From a virus, in IMG/VR virus record IMGVR_UViG_3300005288_000109, positions 1-23,844 of that record: a DNA stretch of 23,844 nucleotides, one strand, 5' to 3'. Positions 139 through 8,181 of this stretch are shown here, in pieces; the stretch's first letter is position 1; each line of letters begins with the position of its first letter. The translations under genes were made by a program, and so were the position numbers. Under the pieces are notes generated by a model that worked only from the letters and a program-made list of their open reading frames with translations, was not told where the DNA came from and made no database searches.

Positions 139-540
139 ATGGCTAATAAGAATCCTAACAAATCTACGAGATTTGACGGGGAAAAGTCGAACAGAAATAC
201 GAAATCAAATAGTAAAGTTCGCATCCAGAAATCTAAGCTTCGTGATACTGCTGCCAAGCTCCGAGAGCTGGAAAGTAAGTGCCTAGAAAACATTAAGAAC
301 AGTGTTGAAGGAAAAGAAGTAGAACCTAAACAGCTTGATTCTTCGAAGTGGGTTATCAACTCCCTGATCAGTCTGGACCGTGCAGCTAGTCAAGAAGAAG
401 CATCCCTCACTAAGATTCGTCTTGAAGGGAAAAGAGATGAGGACGATGAAGCTGATCAACAGGAAGCTGCTGAGATTGTAAAGCTTGTGCCTCGTTTGAA
501 GCGTACGTTTGATGAAAATGATGTAAAGAAAGATGATTAA
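139..540 (+). CDS. Putative terminase small subunit
   Basis: This encodes a 133-residue, highly charged protein. The basic N-terminus (about residues 1-35, rich in Lys, Arg, Asn and Ser) could contact DNA. Helical segments around 30-55 and 68-100 follow, the first with coiled-coil-like spacing, and the tail is acidic to mixed. A TAAGGTAA ribosome binding site sits just ahead of the ATG. Small terminase subunits are usually 100-180 residues, form rings and recognise the packaging site. The size, charge and position at the head of the packaging and head cluster fit that role, but I see no diagnostic motif. The HeH protein at 2445-2807 is the alternative candidate. The stop overlaps the next ORF by 8 nt. 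Confidence 0.45.
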   Translation: MANKNPNKSTRFDGEKSNRNTKSNSKVRIQKSKLRDTAAKLRELESKCLENIKNSVEGKEVEPKQLDSSKWVINSLISLDRAASQEEASLTKIRLEGKRDEDDEADQQEAAEIVKLVPRLKRTFDENDVKKDD

Positions 541-2444: not shown

Positions 2445-2807
2445 ATGAATCGATATATGTTGTACGTTACAGGTAATGATAGCCTCGGCTACAACTTCAT
2501 GAAGAACGTGGTAGAAGCTTCCAATAAAGGCGCTGTCCTTCAAGAAGACAAAGTACCACGACTGAACTATCCACATAGTTGCTGGATGTATATTGAAAGC
2601 AAAGAGATGTTGGAAGATAGTCCGGGCTTTCGTTATCAAGTAATTCAAGAGAATTATACGAAAGAACAACTTGAAGATATGCCTATTGAGGAAATTCGAC
2701 CAATCCTTGCCCGCCGGGGCATTAAAGGTCGCGATAAATCAAAGATGATCAAGCAGTATCTTGCCACTTGTGATGGCGGCGAGAAGGCTTCGGAAGAAGC
2801 CGAGTAA
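2445..2807 (+). CDS. HeH/SAP-like domain protein
   Basis: This encodes a 120-residue protein. Residues 1-65 form an unrecognised mixed domain with several aromatic residues (SCWMYIE near 45-51). Residues 72-107 read as a helix-extension-helix unit: YTKEQLEDMPIEEIRPILA, then RGIKGRDKSKMIKQYL, with the conserved turn GI-KGRDKSKMI typical of SAP, HeH and LEM folds that bind nucleic acid. The tail is acidic. A GAGGAGAA ribosome binding site precedes the ATG. It is first in a run leading into the terminase genes, so a part in genome recognition or packaging is plausible, and it is an alternative small terminase candidate. The domain call is by motif, the function by position. Confidence 0.6.
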   Translation: MNRYMLYVTGNDSLGYNFMKNVVEASNKGAVLQEDKVPRLNYPHSCWMYIESKEMLEDSPGFRYQVIQENYTKEQLEDMPIEEIRPILARRGIKGRDKSKMIKQYLATCDGGEKASEEAE

Positions 2808-2842: not shown

Positions 2843-3487
2843 ATGTCAAAAGTAATATTTGCAACAAAGATGCAGAAAGAAGTTTTGGAAAGCAATGAGA
2901 AGCTGACAGTGATTACGGCAGAGCCGGGAGCTGGTTCAACTGTAGCCCTTCTGATGAAGGCTTATAAAGAAGCTAGCGACAATCATGATGTCAATGTTAC
3001 TTTCTTTGTACGAACCAAATGGGATATTCAACTACCGGGTGGTGTTCGCTCTGAGTTCATGAAACTGTTTGGTGAAGATGTTCGCTATTCTGAAACTTCC
3101 TGCATTGCAACCCTGAAGAATGGTTCAAAGATTAAGTTTGTAGCCTGTGATAAAGGTGTGGAGTCAACACTCGGCTTTGCTAAGGATTTAGTACTATACG
3201 ACATCAGTATCCCTAAAGACTTTGTTCTAGCTCATCTCTTCCGAGCTAATAAGATGGTCATTGTTGACTCAATTGAGAATCTTGAAAAAGATGACTCTTG
3301 GGCAAACATTGCTAATCTTCTAGATAAAGTTGATGGCAAGATCACTGGCTTCTGTGATTCTGTGAATCATATCACTGGGACAATTGAAGAGAACTTCTTG
3401 TTTGAGGGTGATAGAGAGCATTACAAAGAGTTGGTGATGCAGTCAATTCCCGGACGAATGAAAGTTCAGTTTGGGAGTGTTGTGTAA
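2843..3487 (+). CDS. Terminase-like pseudo-ATPase, no nuclease domain
   Basis: This encodes a 214-residue protein with the layout of a large terminase ATPase domain. Residues 23-34 occupy the P-loop place but read AEPGAGSTV, so the essential Lys of GxGK(S/T) is Ser32. Residues 55-120 follow the true terminase closely (FFVRTKW...GGVRSEFMKLF, then KNGSKIKFVACDKGVESTLGFAKDLVLYD against the terminase's SSGAEISFSHYENDTAAKKYQGIQISNIFYDE). In the Walker B place it has YDI rather than YDE. The end, HYKELVMQSIPGRMKVQFG, resembles LYKSNLEALPTLDKERLLHG, which closes the terminase ATPase domain, and no nuclease part follows. It is probably inactive in ATP hydrolysis and may be a regulatory partner. The start at 2843 has GGAG 9 nt upstream; the in-frame ATG at 2828 has no such site. 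Confidence 0.65.
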   Translation: MSKVIFATKMQKEVLESNEKLTVITAEPGAGSTVALLMKAYKEASDNHDVNVTFFVRTKWDIQLPGGVRSEFMKLFGEDVRYSETSCIATLKNGSKIKFVACDKGVESTLGFAKDLVLYDISIPKDFVLAHLFRANKMVIVDSIENLEKDDSWANIANLLDKVDGKITGFCDSVNHITGTIEENFLFEGDREHYKELVMQSIPGRMKVQFGSVV

Positions 3488-4134
3488 TGGTTAGTCGTAA
3501 GTATGTTGAGGGTGCTACATTTGGTCAGCTTACAATTGTAGGAATGGCTCCGAGACGAGGAACTAATAAATTTGTTTATTGTACTTGTTCTTGTGGTAAT
3601 CCAGAAACTATTGAAGTGTTCATTGGCAACTTAGGCCGAGGACATACTACATCTTGTGGTTGTGCTTTTAAAGAAGCTATTACCAAACACGGACTTCACA
3701 ATACTCTAGAATATAGAGTAAGAACTTATATGATCCAACGTTGCTACAATGAAAACCACGACTCTTATTTGGACTATGGTGGACGTGGAATTAATGTCTG
3801 TGAGCGTTGGTTAGAGTCAGTTGAGAATTTTTATACTGATATGGGTCCATGCCCTGATGGTATGACTCTAGAACGTATTGATGTCAATGGTAACTACTGC
3901 CCTGAAAACTGCAAGTGGGATACACCCAGTAATCAAGGTTATAACAAACGTATCCGTGAGTCTAACACATCAGGAAGAACAGGTGTTTATTGGGCTGAAC
4001 GAGAAGGTTTTTGGAAAGCTCAAATAGGCTATATGGGTAAGGTGTTTTCTCTCGGATCAAGCACATCTTTTGAAGAAGCTGTTAAACTAAGAGAAAAAGC
4101 CGAACTACACTATTATGGATGGATTAAGGAATAA
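3487..4134 (+). CDS. HNH homing endonuclease with AP2-like C-terminal domain
   Basis: This encodes a 215-residue free-standing endonuclease. Cys32, Cys34, Cys36, Cys57 and Cys59 form a likely zinc site (CTCSC ... SCGC). Residues 84-145 are the HNH nuclease core: RCYNENHDSYLDYGGRGI, then CERW, DMGPCPDGMTLERID, NGNYCPENCKWDT. Residues 158-211 (SGRTGVYWAEREGFWKAQI ... EEAVKLREKAELHYYG) form an AP2-like DNA-binding domain. The family cuts DNA to promote copying of itself or of a neighbouring intron into alleles that lack it. It sits at the junction between the pseudo-ATPase and terminase genes (TAATG overlap, GGGAG site upstream). It ends 2 nt before the terminase ATG and about 0.35 kb from the intron, and is the obvious candidate to mobilise that intron. 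Confidence 0.9.
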   Translation: MVSRKYVEGATFGQLTIVGMAPRRGTNKFVYCTCSCGNPETIEVFIGNLGRGHTTSCGCAFKEAITKHGLHNTLEYRVRTYMIQRCYNENHDSYLDYGGRGINVCERWLESVENFYTDMGPCPDGMTLERIDVNGNYCPENCKWDTPSNQGYNKRIRESNTSGRTGVYWAEREGFWKAQIGYMGKVFSLGSSTSFEEAVKLREKAELHYYGWIKE

Positions 4135-4136
4135 GA

Positions 4137-5911
4137 ATGACTGACGCAGTGACTATTGGTCCTGCGTCCCCCTTCCAAGAAAAGTATCTGAACTCCGATG
4201 CTCAGATAATGTTGGTTGGAGGGGCGGCAGGAAGTTCTAAGAGTTACGTGGGTTTGATGAGGCACCTACGCTTTGTAGATGATCCAAATTATCGAGCATA
4301 TTGCATCCGAAAGAACTCCAGTGCAATTATGGCTTCTGGTGGTTTGTTTTGGGAAGCCGTTAAATTATATACTCAGTTTGATCCTAAGATTAAAGTAAAA
4401 CTAAAAGATCAGAAGATTGTATTTAGTAGTGGTGCTGAGATTAGCTTCTCTCACTATGAGAATGATACAGCAGCTAAGAAATATCAAGGTAAATTGATTG
4501 CCTAGTGTAGTGGTGACATTACACCGTAACTTGGTTAATTCGGTGAAACCCCTAACGTAGAGTCGAGGGCAATACCGAGCGAAGCCCGAAAGGGAACGTG
4601 TAACGACTATCGCGAAAGCGAGTAGCCCTAAGTGGGGCGAAACACCAAGCATCTCGTTGAGATGGAGATATAGTCTGATCTATATGGAAACATATAGCTG
4701 CGAAAGCGGATAGGTGATTAACGCTACCTATTGAACAAACAATGATTCAAATTTCAAACATTTTCTATGATGAGGTAACTCACGCAGATAATGAAGATCA
4801 ACTTTGGTGGTTATGGTCACGTCTTCGTTCCGATTCAAAGAACATCCATTCAATGTGGTGGTCTTGCAATCCGGATAACGGGAGTTGGGTTCTTAAGTAC
4901 GCCATGCCGTTTTTGTACCCTGAAGGCCACGAATTAGCTGGTCGTCCAGACCCTGCAATGAATGGTGTTGTTAGGTATCTACTGCGAATTAACGGTGAAC
5001 TTTCTTGGGGAGAAACTCCGGAAGAGTTGATTGAAAAGCACGGTAATCCTGACCTACCCCACGACCATGAAGACCAAGTAAAACCAATTAGCTTCCAAGG
5101 TTTGTTCGGGACTATTGATGATAACCCTCCACTTAAAAAATCTAACAAACTTTACAAAAGTAATTTAGAAGCCTTGCCAACTCTGGACAAGGAGCGGTTA
5201 CTACACGGCAATTGGTTTGCGCGTGCTTCTAATTCGACGTACTATTCCAGATCGACTGTACCAGAACTACTTGAGATTCCACACGAATCTGAGTTTGTTA
5301 AGATTGTTCGTGCCTACGACGTTGCTGGTACTCTACCCCATGATGGTAATCGTGAGACAGATTATTTTGCGTCTGTAAAGATGGGTAAGTTGAAGAGTGG
5401 TAATTACGTAATCTTAGATGTTTGCCGTACACGTATTACCTTCGGCGATTGGTTCTCTCATATCTGTAGTAATGCGGAAAGAGACGGTCATAACGTAGAA
5501 ATAATCTTACCTGAAGATCCTAACCCAGCTTCAAAAGCATCTACAGTCTTGCTTGCCCGTTCATTGATTGAACAAGGTTATATAACCAAGACAAGACGTT
5601 CTGCTGGTGGTAAGTTAGACTCCTTTAGACCTTTTGCAGCATCCGCTGAACTTGGTGTGGTCTCTATTGTTAGAGATTGTGCTAATGACCTTTGGAATAA
5701 GGTTGTTAATAACAATGACTTCTTCCACGCTGAGTTGGAGAATTTTGATGGAAAGCGCCGTAGCGGCCCCCTAGGCCACGACGATATGTGCGACTGTTGT
5801 TCTCTAGCTTTCCTCTTTCTGGCACAAAAGATTAATATACCAAACTTTTCGTCTGGTTTACTTTCAGCGAAACTTACCAATACTAACCCCTTCCTTAATG
5901 CAGGAGCTTAA
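4137..5911 (+). CDS. terL: Terminase large subunit, split by a group I intron
   Basis: The exons are 4137-4490 (118 codons) and 4745-5911 (388 codons plus stop), joined in phase 0 to give 506 residues, normal for the family. The protein is the packaging motor ATPase and genome-cutting nuclease. Walker A is GGAAGSSKS (28-36). After splicing the Walker B region reads KYQG-IQISNIFYDE with the catalytic Asp127-Glu128, and a coupling motif WWSCNPD lies at 156-162. The nuclease domain has Asp310 (VRAYDVAG), Glu376-Asp377 (LPEDPN) and GHDDMCD at 462-468. Without splicing the reading frame stops after four intron codons (KLIA, TAG at 4503-4505), so splicing is required for function. An AAGGA site lies 6 nt before the ATG. 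Confidence 0.93.
4491..4744 (+). ncRNA. Group I intron in terL, no ORF, 254 nt
   Basis: P1 is formed by exon AGGU (4487-4490) with GCCU (4500-4503), giving the expected U-G pair at the 5' splice site. P2 pairs 4505-4512 with 4517-4524 around GUGA. P4 pairs 4540-4544 with 4574-4578, P5 4550-4553 with 4566-4569, and P6 is a CCC-GAAA-GGG hairpin (4585-4594). P7 pairs GACTA (4605-4609) with TAGTC (4671-4675), and P8 is TCGC-GAAA-GCGA (4610-4621). P9 is CTATATG-GAAA-CATATAG (4680-4697), followed by hairpins 4698-4709 and 4710-4731. The intron ends in G4744. The core strings (AACGACUAU, GGAGAUAUAGUCU) resemble the T4 td intron. Bases 4494-4499 could pair with the 3' exon (5 of 6) as P10. It should self-splice. 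Confidence 0.93.
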
Positions 5912-7405
5912 ATGGCTGACGAAGCAGAAATCTCCCTAGAGGCAGGGGACAATGAAATCCCAACTCTTTCTCTTGGGGAAGCTGGCTATAATGGCCTTCG
6001 GGTTTTAGGCGGCGAAATTCTTGAAGAATGTTCTCATGAACTGCGTTGGCCGCAAGCGATGCAGACTTTTAAACGTATGGAAAAGGACGGGGCTATTGCT
6101 CCAGCACTTGCATATGTGGAAATGATGATTTCTCGTGTTGACTGGAGTGTAAAGATTCCAGAAGGCTACGAAGAACAACTTAAAGATAAAGCTATCTACA
6201 TGCGTCAAGTTATGAATGATATGGAACACGATTTCAAGTCTTTCATTAAACAAGCTGTAAGCTTTAATCGGTACGGTTTTGCACCAGTTGAAAAGGTTCT
6301 AAGACTGAGATACCGAGATAAGGGCTCTCAATATAATGATGGGCTTGTTGGCATTAAGAAGCTTGTACTTCGTTCACAAGACACAATTGATAGCTGGAAA
6401 TTTACAAACAAGGGTCGTGATCTTGCTGGACTCTATCAGTGTGTAAATATCCAGAGCAACCGTGCTGCTAATTCTTACGAAGAAGTTGCAAACTATACTT
6501 ACGAAGATAATATCAAATTTATCCCTCGTAAAAAGTTCATGCTCTTTCGCTCAAATCCAATAAAAAACAACCCGGAAGGGCAATCCCCTCTAGTTGGTTG
6601 CTGGTCGGCATGGAAGTATAAGACAGCCTACCAAGAGTCCGAAGCTATTAGCGTAGCTCAAGATTCAAATGGGTTCAAGGTTCTTTACCTCCCCCCACAG
6701 TATATGACTGAAGATGCTTCTGAAGATAATAAAGCAGTCTTTGAGCACTATAAAACTGTAATTAAGAACATGCATCAGGCCAAGGAATCAGGACTAATCC
6801 TCCCCTTGATCCTAGATGACAACGGTAAGAAGATGTTTGAGTTTGAGATTATGTCTGTAACAGGGCAAAAGTCTTACGACACAAACGCCATTATCCAACG
6901 TTATACAGCAGAAATCCTTACGGCTTTGTTTGCTGACTTCCTATCTCTTGGTAGTAACGGTAGTGGTAGCTTCTCTCTTGCAGAGTCAAAGATTAGTGTT
7001 GTTGAGATGGCTATTCAATCAAAGCTGGATGAGATTAAAACTCAACTTAACTTTGACCTTGCCAAACAATTATTTAAGTTGAATGGTTGGTCAACCGACG
7101 TAATGCCTGAATGGACTTACGGCGAGATTGGTAAAGTCTCTATGGACGAAATCGGTAAGTTCGTACAACGAGTTTCCGCAGTATCCATGATGCCTAAAAC
7201 ACCACAAGTTGTTAACTGGATTATGGAACAAGCCAATATTCCTTATAAAGTTGACCCAGATACTTCTATCGGGGACTTGTCTGAGATGCTTACACCAATG
7301 ACTTCAGGTGCAGCTCAAGGTATGACCTCCGGTATGAGCAACGGCGTTGGAGGTTCTAATGGATCTTCGGGAGACAGTTCAACCAGTAATACGGAAAATA
7401 CATAG
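5912..7405 (+). CDS. Portal protein (DUF935 / Mu gp29-like)
   Basis: This encodes a 497-residue protein starting directly after the terminase stop, with AGGAG 5 nt upstream. Features typical of DUF935-type portals are visible: an N-terminal region with PQAMQTFKRMEKDGAIAPAL near 47-66, a stem with FNRYGFAPVEKV near 118-129, a segment FIPRKKFMLFRSNPI near 208-222, and a C-terminal helical part with SFSLAESKISVVEMAIQSKL near 352-371. The last 40 residues are a flexible Ser/Gly/Asn-rich tail. Twelve copies would form the ring at the capsid vertex through which DNA is pumped by the terminase and to which the connectors dock. The position between terL and the protease is the usual one. Confidence 0.85.
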   Translation: MADEAEISLEAGDNEIPTLSLGEAGYNGLRVLGGEILEECSHELRWPQAMQTFKRMEKDGAIAPALAYVEMMISRVDWSVKIPEGYEEQLKDKAIYMRQVMNDMEHDFKSFIKQAVSFNRYGFAPVEKVLRLRYRDKGSQYNDGLVGIKKLVLRSQDTIDSWKFTNKGRDLAGLYQCVNIQSNRAANSYEEVANYTYEDNIKFIPRKKFMLFRSNPIKNNPEGQSPLVGCWSAWKYKTAYQESEAISVAQDSNGFKVLYLPPQYMTEDASEDNKAVFEHYKTVIKNMHQAKESGLILPLILDDNGKKMFEFEIMSVTGQKSYDTNAIIQRYTAEILTALFADFLSLGSNGSGSFSLAESKISVVEMAIQSKLDEIKTQLNFDLAKQLFKLNGWSTDVMPEWTYGEIGKVSMDEIGKFVQRVSAVSMMPKTPQVVNWIMEQANIPYKVDPDTSIGDLSEMLTPMTSGAAQGMTSGMSNGVGGSNGSSGDSSTSNTENT

Positions 7406-8181
7406 TGAGAGAACTAAAGGATAAAGGTTGGGTAACTCCAACCGATAGAGAATCTTATTATGTATATGCTTTATATGACCTGAATGGATGGCCTTTCTAT
7501 ATAGGCAAGGGTAAAAACCTTCGTTTAAATAATCATGTAAAGCCAACTCTACTCAAAGAAAACTGCTACAAGAATTTTAAAATTAAAAAGATTCTTAAAG
7601 AGCAAGGTTATCTTAAAAGAGAGATTCTTTGCTATTGTGAATCAGAAGAGTCCGCACTAAATCTAGAAAAAGATTTAATTGCAGCTTATGGCATTTATAC
7701 AGAAAACGGCCTTCTGACTAACCACTCCAAACATCATTGGGACTTGCCAGCCAAGGCTTACGTAAAGAAAGCAGAAGCCCAGAAAGTTGAAAGACAAAGC
7801 CGTGTTTCTGATGAGTTGATTTTAAAAGCTTATAACTCTTGGAAATTTGATTTTGTCTCCATCCTCTCTCTAGCTGAAGGTTTAGGTCTTTCATCTTCTT
7901 ATCTCGGTAAGGTTTTTGAAGGCAAGAAACGGAAAGATTTAGGTCTTACTATTGAAACGCCCAGTAGACAATCACTTCGTTTAGGTATGGGTAAGCAACA
8001 ACTGATTGAGTTTGCTGAAGATCGGTTCGTTAATAAATTTTCCTATAGTCAATTAATGTCTAAATATTCTATGCCTAAAACAACAGTTGCTAGAGTTCTT
8101 AAGATGGAAGGTGTTTATTCTTTTCTTAAAGAACTTTATCCAGACGAACTTAAAAATAAGGAGTCCATTTATGGCCCATGA
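7405..8181 (+). CDS. GIY-YIG homing endonuclease
   Basis: This encodes a 258-residue free-standing endonuclease starting at a GTG that overlaps the portal stop (TAGTG), with a weak GGAA site 8 nt upstream. The nuclease domain occupies about residues 17-100: YVY at 19-21, FYIGKG at 31-36, Arg40, and Glu88 in the ALNLEKDLI helix are the expected catalytic positions. The C-terminal half has two helix-turn-helix-like segments, near 150-175 (SILSLAEGLGLSSSYLGKVF) and 215-245 (SYSQLMSKYSMPKTTVARVL), suited to target recognition. The 3' end carries the ribosome binding site of the protease gene and overlaps it by 11 nt, so the insertion keeps both neighbours intact. The gene is more A/T-rich than the flanking head genes, consistent with transfer. 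Confidence 0.88.
   Translation: MRELKDKGWVTPTDRESYYVYALYDLNGWPFYIGKGKNLRLNNHVKPTLLKENCYKNFKIKKILKEQGYLKREILCYCESEESALNLEKDLIAAYGIYTENGLLTNHSKHHWDLPAKAYVKKAEAQKVERQSRVSDELILKAYNSWKFDFVSILSLAEGLGLSSSYLGKVFEGKKRKDLGLTIETPSRQSLRLGMGKQQLIEFAEDRFVNKFSYSQLMSKYSMPKTTVARVLKMEGVYSFLKELYPDELKNKESIYGP

Follow-up and report, generated by a model that had tools for sequence, protein, structure and literature searches.

A probable catalytically dead relative of the terminase ATPase domain encoded near the large terminase gene of tailed phages

The window, by which we mean the whole 23.8-kb virus record analysed (23,844 nucleotides, head genes on the + strand), encodes a 214-aa protein (2843..3487, +) that is very probably a stand-alone, catalytically dead ATPase domain of the large terminase subunit (TerL). 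We refer to this protein as PTL. Since PTL is without three features that define TerL, namely the P-loop Lys, the Walker B Glu and the nuclease, it is not a TerL, and we regard it as a terminase-fold pseudo-enzyme. The named genomes that carry the gene currently annotate its product as "hypothetical protein." Our literature search, with most subscription papers outside it, found no description of such a terminase pseudo-ATPase, and we file PTL as an accessory family of terminase pseudo-ATPases that so far has no name. TerL is highly conserved among phages, and both bacterial sensors and a phage satellite are known to target it. A dead TerL look-alike that is selectively kept in several phage lineages would represent either a new mode of regulating DNA packaging by the motor or a decoy that counters the recognition of TerL.

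The PTL reading frame is open from ATG 2828 or ATG 2843 to the stop at 3487. We prefer the start at 2843, because a GGAG ends 9 nt 5′ of this ATG and because in 6/6 IMG/VR relatives an in-frame stop leaves just two codons 5′ of the equivalent ATG. A small conserved ORF (2445..2807, +; DUF7440-like, below cut-off) adjoins PTL on its 5′ side, preceded by a fibre-like ORF (1236-2309, +) and a small protein rich in charged residues (139..540, +), which is a small-terminase candidate by position only. Between PTL and terL lies a free-standing HNH endonuclease ORF (3487..4134, +; phrog_374, 1.1e-65). The gene for the true large terminase follows as two reading frames. The exon 1 frame (4137..4505, +; phrog_979, 1.7e-40) encodes the P-loop GGAAGSSKS and extends into a group I intron (4481..4697, +; RF00028, 88.1 bits) before reaching its stop, while the exon 2 frame (4742..5911, +; phrog_979, 1e-100) encodes the Walker B motif YDE and the nuclease domain. 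The portal gene occupies 5912-7405 (+). The HNH ORF is absent in one close relative (L004), where the gap from the PTL stop to the terL ATG is 14 nt; elsewhere an HNH gene or several genes separate PTL from terL. The small proteins at 139-540 of the window and 8576-8980 of L093 had no Pfam family match. Those encoded 5′ of terL in phiPMW and SYP match DUF5681 (including 4495-4917 of L010) and are putative small terminases.

The original prediction had read the layout of a terminase ATPase domain from the letters of PTL, and the landmarks that it named are present. When a six-PTL profile was aligned to 17 TerLs with hhalign, the probability was 97.8 and the E value 6.6e-13, with the P-loop and Walker B motifs in register and RTKW...GGVRSEF of PTL paired with RKNS...GGLYEQA of the TerLs. 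The window protein carries Q11 at the place of the Q-motif, a degenerate P-loop (EPGAGST), a Walker B strand ending in YDIS, Arg134 between helix alpha3 and strand beta4 and a closing GTIEEN...IPGR segment. This closing segment, GTIEENFLFEGDREHYKELVMQSIPGR, aligns to GTI-DNP-L---NP-Y---LE-LP--R-RLL-G of TerL, and the GTI-EN closing segment of the TerL ATPase domain is retained in the window group. A TerL HMM scored the window PTL at 27.4 bits, compared with a maximum of 3.6 for shuffled sequences (1000 shuffles made, 704 reported by the HMM). At E ≤ 0.01 its single PHROG match was phrog_979, terminase large subunit (E 1.3e-6), a profile that matched 6/9 members of the PTL alignment A1. For the window PTL, Pfam Terminase_6N reached 12.5 bits, under its 22-bit cut-off, and neither NCBIfam nor a search of PDB sequences returned a match.

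We rejected the phrog_979 match as sufficient proof of TerL kinship, because this profile also detects PhoH-like proteins; for the same reason, PhoH is the control that matters. Five other proteins matched by phrog_979 or by the PTL profile look PhoH-like by eye (GSGKT-type P-loop, DE-Q), and four of these, omitting the incomplete L098, made up the control alignment A6. The hhalign E values against this PhoH profile, which is shallower than the TerL profile (4 versus 17 sequences), were 2.1e-6 for the window group, 0.029 for the L077 subgroup and 0.0033 for the Vibrio/PH357 subgroup. With the window sequence excluded, the L077 subgroup (A7) matched TerL with probability 92.8 and E 4e-7, and the Vibrio/PH357 subgroup (A8) with probability 70 and E 4e-5. 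In all three subgroups, the PhoH match was weaker than the TerL match, and TerL rather than an unrelated family was the best match in the profile comparison. Taken one by one, the copies of Klebsiella phage 05F01, Vibrio phages CoeS_P1 and qdvp001 and Pseudoalteromonas phage PH357 showed no clear excess over shuffles with the TerL HMM; they are linked to the family through other PTLs. Detection of PhoH-like proteins by phrog_979 in the same genomes is a possible source of mis-annotation.

The predicted structure agreed with these comparisons. An AlphaFold model of PTL (six-sequence input; pLDDT 69.5, pTM 0.71) adopts a terminase-type ASCE fold rather than a non-ASCE one, and ranks 1-15 of a Foldseek search of the PDB with this model were all solved TerLs. 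Against the ATPase domain of P74-26 TerL (4znl_B), the model gave a VIA Z of 15.1, with 176 residues aligned at rmsd 3.9, followed in order by D6E, Sf6, NAT10, T4 and helicases. For the L077 copy (A5), the prediction was of low confidence (pLDDT 42, pTM 0.36), and this model was set aside. The top viral structural match in BFVD was A0A5Q2W6R2, a 195-aa protein (E 4.1e-12, 30% identity, 218 columns) that, judged by size, is probably a member of the PTL family.

Could PTL instead belong to another ASCE ATPase family, such as PhoH or the N-terminus of a UvrD/GajB-like helicase, and merely resemble TerL? Besides the shared detection by phrog_979, PhoH2 (3b85) matched the PTL model with a VIA Z of 12.1, and Pfam UvrD matched residues 6-46 of the TS9/DL copy at 0.0013, below cut-off. 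PADLOC, run on 5/13 PTLs, gave no defence-profile match over most of the protein; weak matches to GajB, Nhi or Cas3d fell in the N-terminal part, those to GajB within the first 50-70 residues (0.0024 for the window, 5e-5 for TS9/DL, 0.001 for 05F01). However, such matches either cover no more than the Q-motif and P-loop or, in each of the three subgroups, fall short of the match to TerL, and the closing segment is TerL-like. In addition, a tblastn search with the L077 copy returned 30 records, of which 26 are annotated as terminase (E 0.01-0.6), three are unannotated and one is the CoeS_P1 copy. We consider membership of another ASCE family highly improbable. By eye, the broken PTL of PH357 also ends in a TerL-like segment.

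We next considered the catalytic positions. In the hhalign register with 17 TerLs, Ser32 lies opposite the P-loop Lys, and Asp120-Ile121 lie opposite the Walker B Asp-Glu; both predicted substitutions thus hold. We compared 13 distinct PTLs, consisting of the window, L001, L004, L005, L006, L077, L093 and L094 together with those of Klebsiella 05F01, Aeromonas DL/TS9, Vibrio CoeS_P1, Vibrio qdvp001 and PH357 (copy a). Left out of the count were L002 and L003, whose protein is that of L001; TS9, which does not differ from DL; L092, which is the L077 contig; and two broken copies, those of phiA047 and PH357-b. All 13 PTLs are without the Walker B Glu and 12/13 without the P-loop Lys, while true TerLs have Lys in 16/16 rows having the column and Glu in 17/17. 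The Lys place holds S in four PTLs, V in three, A and H in two each, and L and K in one each; the Glu place holds A in four, H in three, Q in two, and I, D, C and S in one each, the Asp of 05F01 having been positioned by eye since MAFFT shifts that row. Different lineages carry different replacements, which suggests that the residues were lost repeatedly or that these positions drift. None of the relatives has both residues. The one lineage with the Lys, that of Aeromonas, retains GSGKS and is still without the Glu; since the Lys is retained there, the Aeromonas PTL may still bind nucleotide. The RNase H-like C-terminal nuclease domain of TerL is also missing, as had been predicted: PTL ORFs, which are 191-251 aa long, stop either at the closing motif of the ATPase domain or shortly past it. 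Judged by these residues, PTL would be catalytically inactive.

The gene is nonetheless kept, as the original prediction had supposed. For five PTLs that are 72-87% identical, dN/dS was 0.080-0.237 in 10/10 pairs, indicating purifying selection, and Q11 and the last P-loop glycine are invariant in the 9 rows of A1. These values already largely refute the idea that PTL is a neutral remnant, that is, a decaying and functionless terminase copy, as does the existence of 12 distinct full-length sequences. Frame changes do break the phiA047 copy and one of the two PH357 copies, and PH357 copy a is N-terminally short, features that decay would produce; we nevertheless judge a remnant highly unlikely.

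PTL genes occur in several groups of phages. Close relatives in IMG/VR are L001-L006 (72-81% identity) and L077/L093/L094 (33-36% identity), and distant copies are carried by Klebsiella phage 05F01, the Vibrio phages CoeS_P1 and qdvp001, Plateaulakevirus phages and PH357. In the eight compared IMG/VR genomes and six named phages (05F01, TS9, DL, phiA047, CoeS_P1 and qdvp001), PTL lies on the same strand as terL and ~0.01-5.3 kb upstream of it; in the L077 group it is upstream of the small-terminase candidate. The phiA047 gene (L037 5995-6575) is broken into two frames. PH357 has two PTL-like genes far apart (L036 2408-3091; L055 1327-2176): the broken copy is ~3 kb upstream of terL, and copy a is 71 kb away, half a genome from terL, with a frame that begins just before the P-loop and an annotated start after it.

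A profile search did not find PTL in 13/13 other named phages with this type of TerL (phiPMW, M1, PAK_P4, KB57, FFH2, phi92, Kashira, SYP, psageK4, Barba23S, ICP1, VSe11 and FKP3), although very divergent copies could be missed, because PH357 copy a itself scored just 1.7e-4. Six of these 13 phages did give matches at E ≤ 0.02, namely to their own TerLs in five and to a PhoH-like protein in FKP3. There was also no PTL match in a 90-kb IMG/VR contig, possibly incomplete, whose TerL is 74-83% identical to that of the window; the seven other contigs without a match in that scan are short fragments and uninformative. Further scans of viral contigs and genome contigs gave no additional PTL relative. 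Two candidates were discarded: an SYP gene (L042 3011-3628, E 4.7), which contains the string GKHNTGKS, has its match beyond the P-loop and has no terminase closing motif, and L095 is a full-length TerL of another type with the P-loop Lys. We regard PTL as belonging to an accessory family that is old and patchy in its distribution and that occurs in tailed phages with a phrog_979-type TerL.

The original prediction derived PTL from duplication of the neighbouring terL, which our phylogeny does not support. When 13 PTLs and 24 TerLs were placed in one tree, the 23 phrog_979-type TerLs, including those of 05F01, CoeS_P1, qdvp001, PH357 and TS9, formed a clade (100/99) that excludes every PTL, and a smaller earlier tree, without the TerLs of 05F01, CoeS_P1, qdvp001 and PH357, agrees. 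Since this clade excludes all PTLs, PTL is not a recent copy of the neighbouring terL, and we reject duplication as a recent local event, with the caveat that several branches are long and could push fast-evolving copies outside the TerL clade. A single origin for all 13 PTLs is neither shown nor rejected: monophyly had an AU p of 0.176 in the smaller tree and appeared in 8% of bootstrap trees in the larger.

We also compared the divergence of PTL with that of nearby genes by Mantel tests in eight genomes (the window, L002 and L089-L094), which are all PTL-bearing IMG/VR contigs at hand minus the near-copies L001 and L003. All eight have a small-terminase candidate. PTL identity correlated with that of this candidate at r 0.81 (87 of 5000 permutations as high), of the small upstream ORF at r 0.40 (285 of 5000), of TerL at r 0.25 (282 of 5000) and of the portal N-terminus at r 0.24 (615 of 5000); ten gene pairs were compared and the permutation counts are uncorrected. 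Since the sample is small and linked, the closer tracking of the small-terminase candidate than of TerL is a lead and not proof. Individual comparisons show how loose the coupling to TerL is. The PTLs of L092, L093 and L094 are 81-95% identical and their TerLs 39-53% identical, while the window and L092 have PTLs that are 36% identical and TerLs that are 71% identical. L092, L093, L094 and L002 are strongly mosaic, such that the histories of TerL, portal, small-terminase candidate and PTL differ within the phage group.

Overall, PTL looks like an optional TerL mimic rather than a part of the motor. We tentatively favor a model in which PTL mimics TerL and competes for factors that bind it, because PTL is optional and is not matched to TerL type. 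We infer its inactivity, binding, competition and target from the computed fold, homology, missing residues, selection, patchiness and loose coupling to TerL. As it looks like TerL and apparently cannot work as TerL, PTL most plausibly binds what TerL binds. It would present a TerL-like ATPase-domain surface and, without hydrolyzing ATP or cutting DNA, would compete with TerL for its binders; the likeliest of these would be TerL-targeting factors, either sensors of the host or inhibitors from satellites, and the phage's own small terminase or portal would be less likely ones. We assume from its place among head genes that PTL would be made late, beside TerL. TerL is described as the molecule sensed by Avs1-3 (PMC12724215; PMC12931631) and as the target of the satellite protein Gpi (PMC12409358), and a defence and counter-defence pair is reported between small and large terminase genes (PMC10884400). 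A more specific proposal, which we consider rather unlikely as it stands, is that PTL is a dedicated decoy that would blind Avs-like TerL sensors or TerL-targeting satellite inhibitors during packaging and would be inherited largely independently of TerL. We know of no Avs or satellite in the hosts of these metagenomic phages. Several results also count against mimicry: a packaging role would also explain the same-strand place near terL in the eight IMG/VR genomes and six named phages, the tracking of the small-terminase candidate (r 0.81) may reflect either packaging or simple linkage, and the correlation of PTL with TerL is above zero (r 0.25).

These same results are consistent with a possible, if somewhat doubtful, role as a packaging regulator or motor subunit that becomes part of the TerL ring, caps it, or links the small terminase to TerL. 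Catalytically dead subunits act in other ATPase rings, for example the clamp-loader delta-prime subunit. By analogy, PTL might supply a surface in trans, possibly including an arginine, while not itself turning over ATP. Its position upstream of terL (PH357 copy a excepted) and its tracking of the small-terminase candidate would fit such a role, as would a basic residue, R134 in the window and K in L094, that follows alpha3 and precedes beta4, in the stretch that holds the trans-arginine of D6E TerL. In D6E TerL, the catalytic residue is described as E143 and the trans-arginine as R158 (PMC5727402). However, little weight can be placed on a single basic residue retained within so short a stretch. 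True TerL has two invariant arginines (R142 and R144 of SYP TerL) and PTL retains one, most likely the R144 equivalent, so that it is only tentatively equated with R158; moreover, the D6E residue numbers were mapped only via the paper and the model, because a search of PDB sequences with the TerL profile A4 found no terminase. A regulator also fits less well with the 13 named phages and the 90-kb contig in which PTL was not found, and with the 81-95% identical PTLs that sit beside divergent TerLs. Of the roles that the original prediction allowed, that of a dedicated motor partner is weakened, because the gene is patchy and its divergence follows that of TerL only loosely, and an obligate partner looks unlikely. 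A substitute for the small terminase, that is, a DNA-recognition subunit, would suit a gene located between or beside small-terminase-like genes and terL, but the predicted TerL ATPase fold and the separate putative small-terminase candidate in 8/8 genomes compared make this very improbable.

Comparison with known proteins places PTL nearest to the phrog_979-type TerLs (relatives of FelixO1, rV5, PAK_P1 and phiPMW), with which it shares the ASCE fold, Q-motif, P-loop frame, Walker B Asp and GTI-DN closing segment. PTL differs from them in the absence of the Lys (12/13), the Glu (13/13) and the nuclease, in its length of 191-251 aa, in being a separate gene and in falling outside the 23-TerL clade. 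Its best solved structural matches, the ATPase domains of the D6E (5oea) and P74-26 (4znl) TerLs, come from active ATPases, which PTL does not appear to be. A0A5Q2W6R2 resembles it in structure at the 30% identity given above. Gpi, an inhibitor of ICP1 TerL (PMC12409358), offers a parallel in that the packaging motor is what it acts on; by its description, to which our comparison is confined, it is borne by a satellite, unlike the phage-borne PTL. The delta-prime-type dead ring subunits of clamp loaders belong to a different ATPase family and offer a works-like analogy for a regulatory role only.

The terL region also carries several selfish elements. Within ~5 kb, the window contains three: the HNH ORF (3487-4134), the terL intron and a GIY-YIG homing endonuclease ORF (7405-8181) 3′ of the portal gene. 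The group I intron (4481-4697) is placed after a conserved YQG, just 5′ of the Walker B strand. In qdvp001, TS9/DL, phiA047, FKP3 and L078, too, terL is split or interrupted, which may point to a recurrent insertion site. In Klebsiella 05F01, Vibrio CoeS_P1 and phi92, the TerL P-loop carries an intein-like insertion of ~150 residues that follows GGAAG or GGSAG, begins with Cys and ends in TGN before SGKS; TerLs with this insertion are encoded at 12409-14505 of L008, 9995-11965 of L009 and 5350-7431 of L040.
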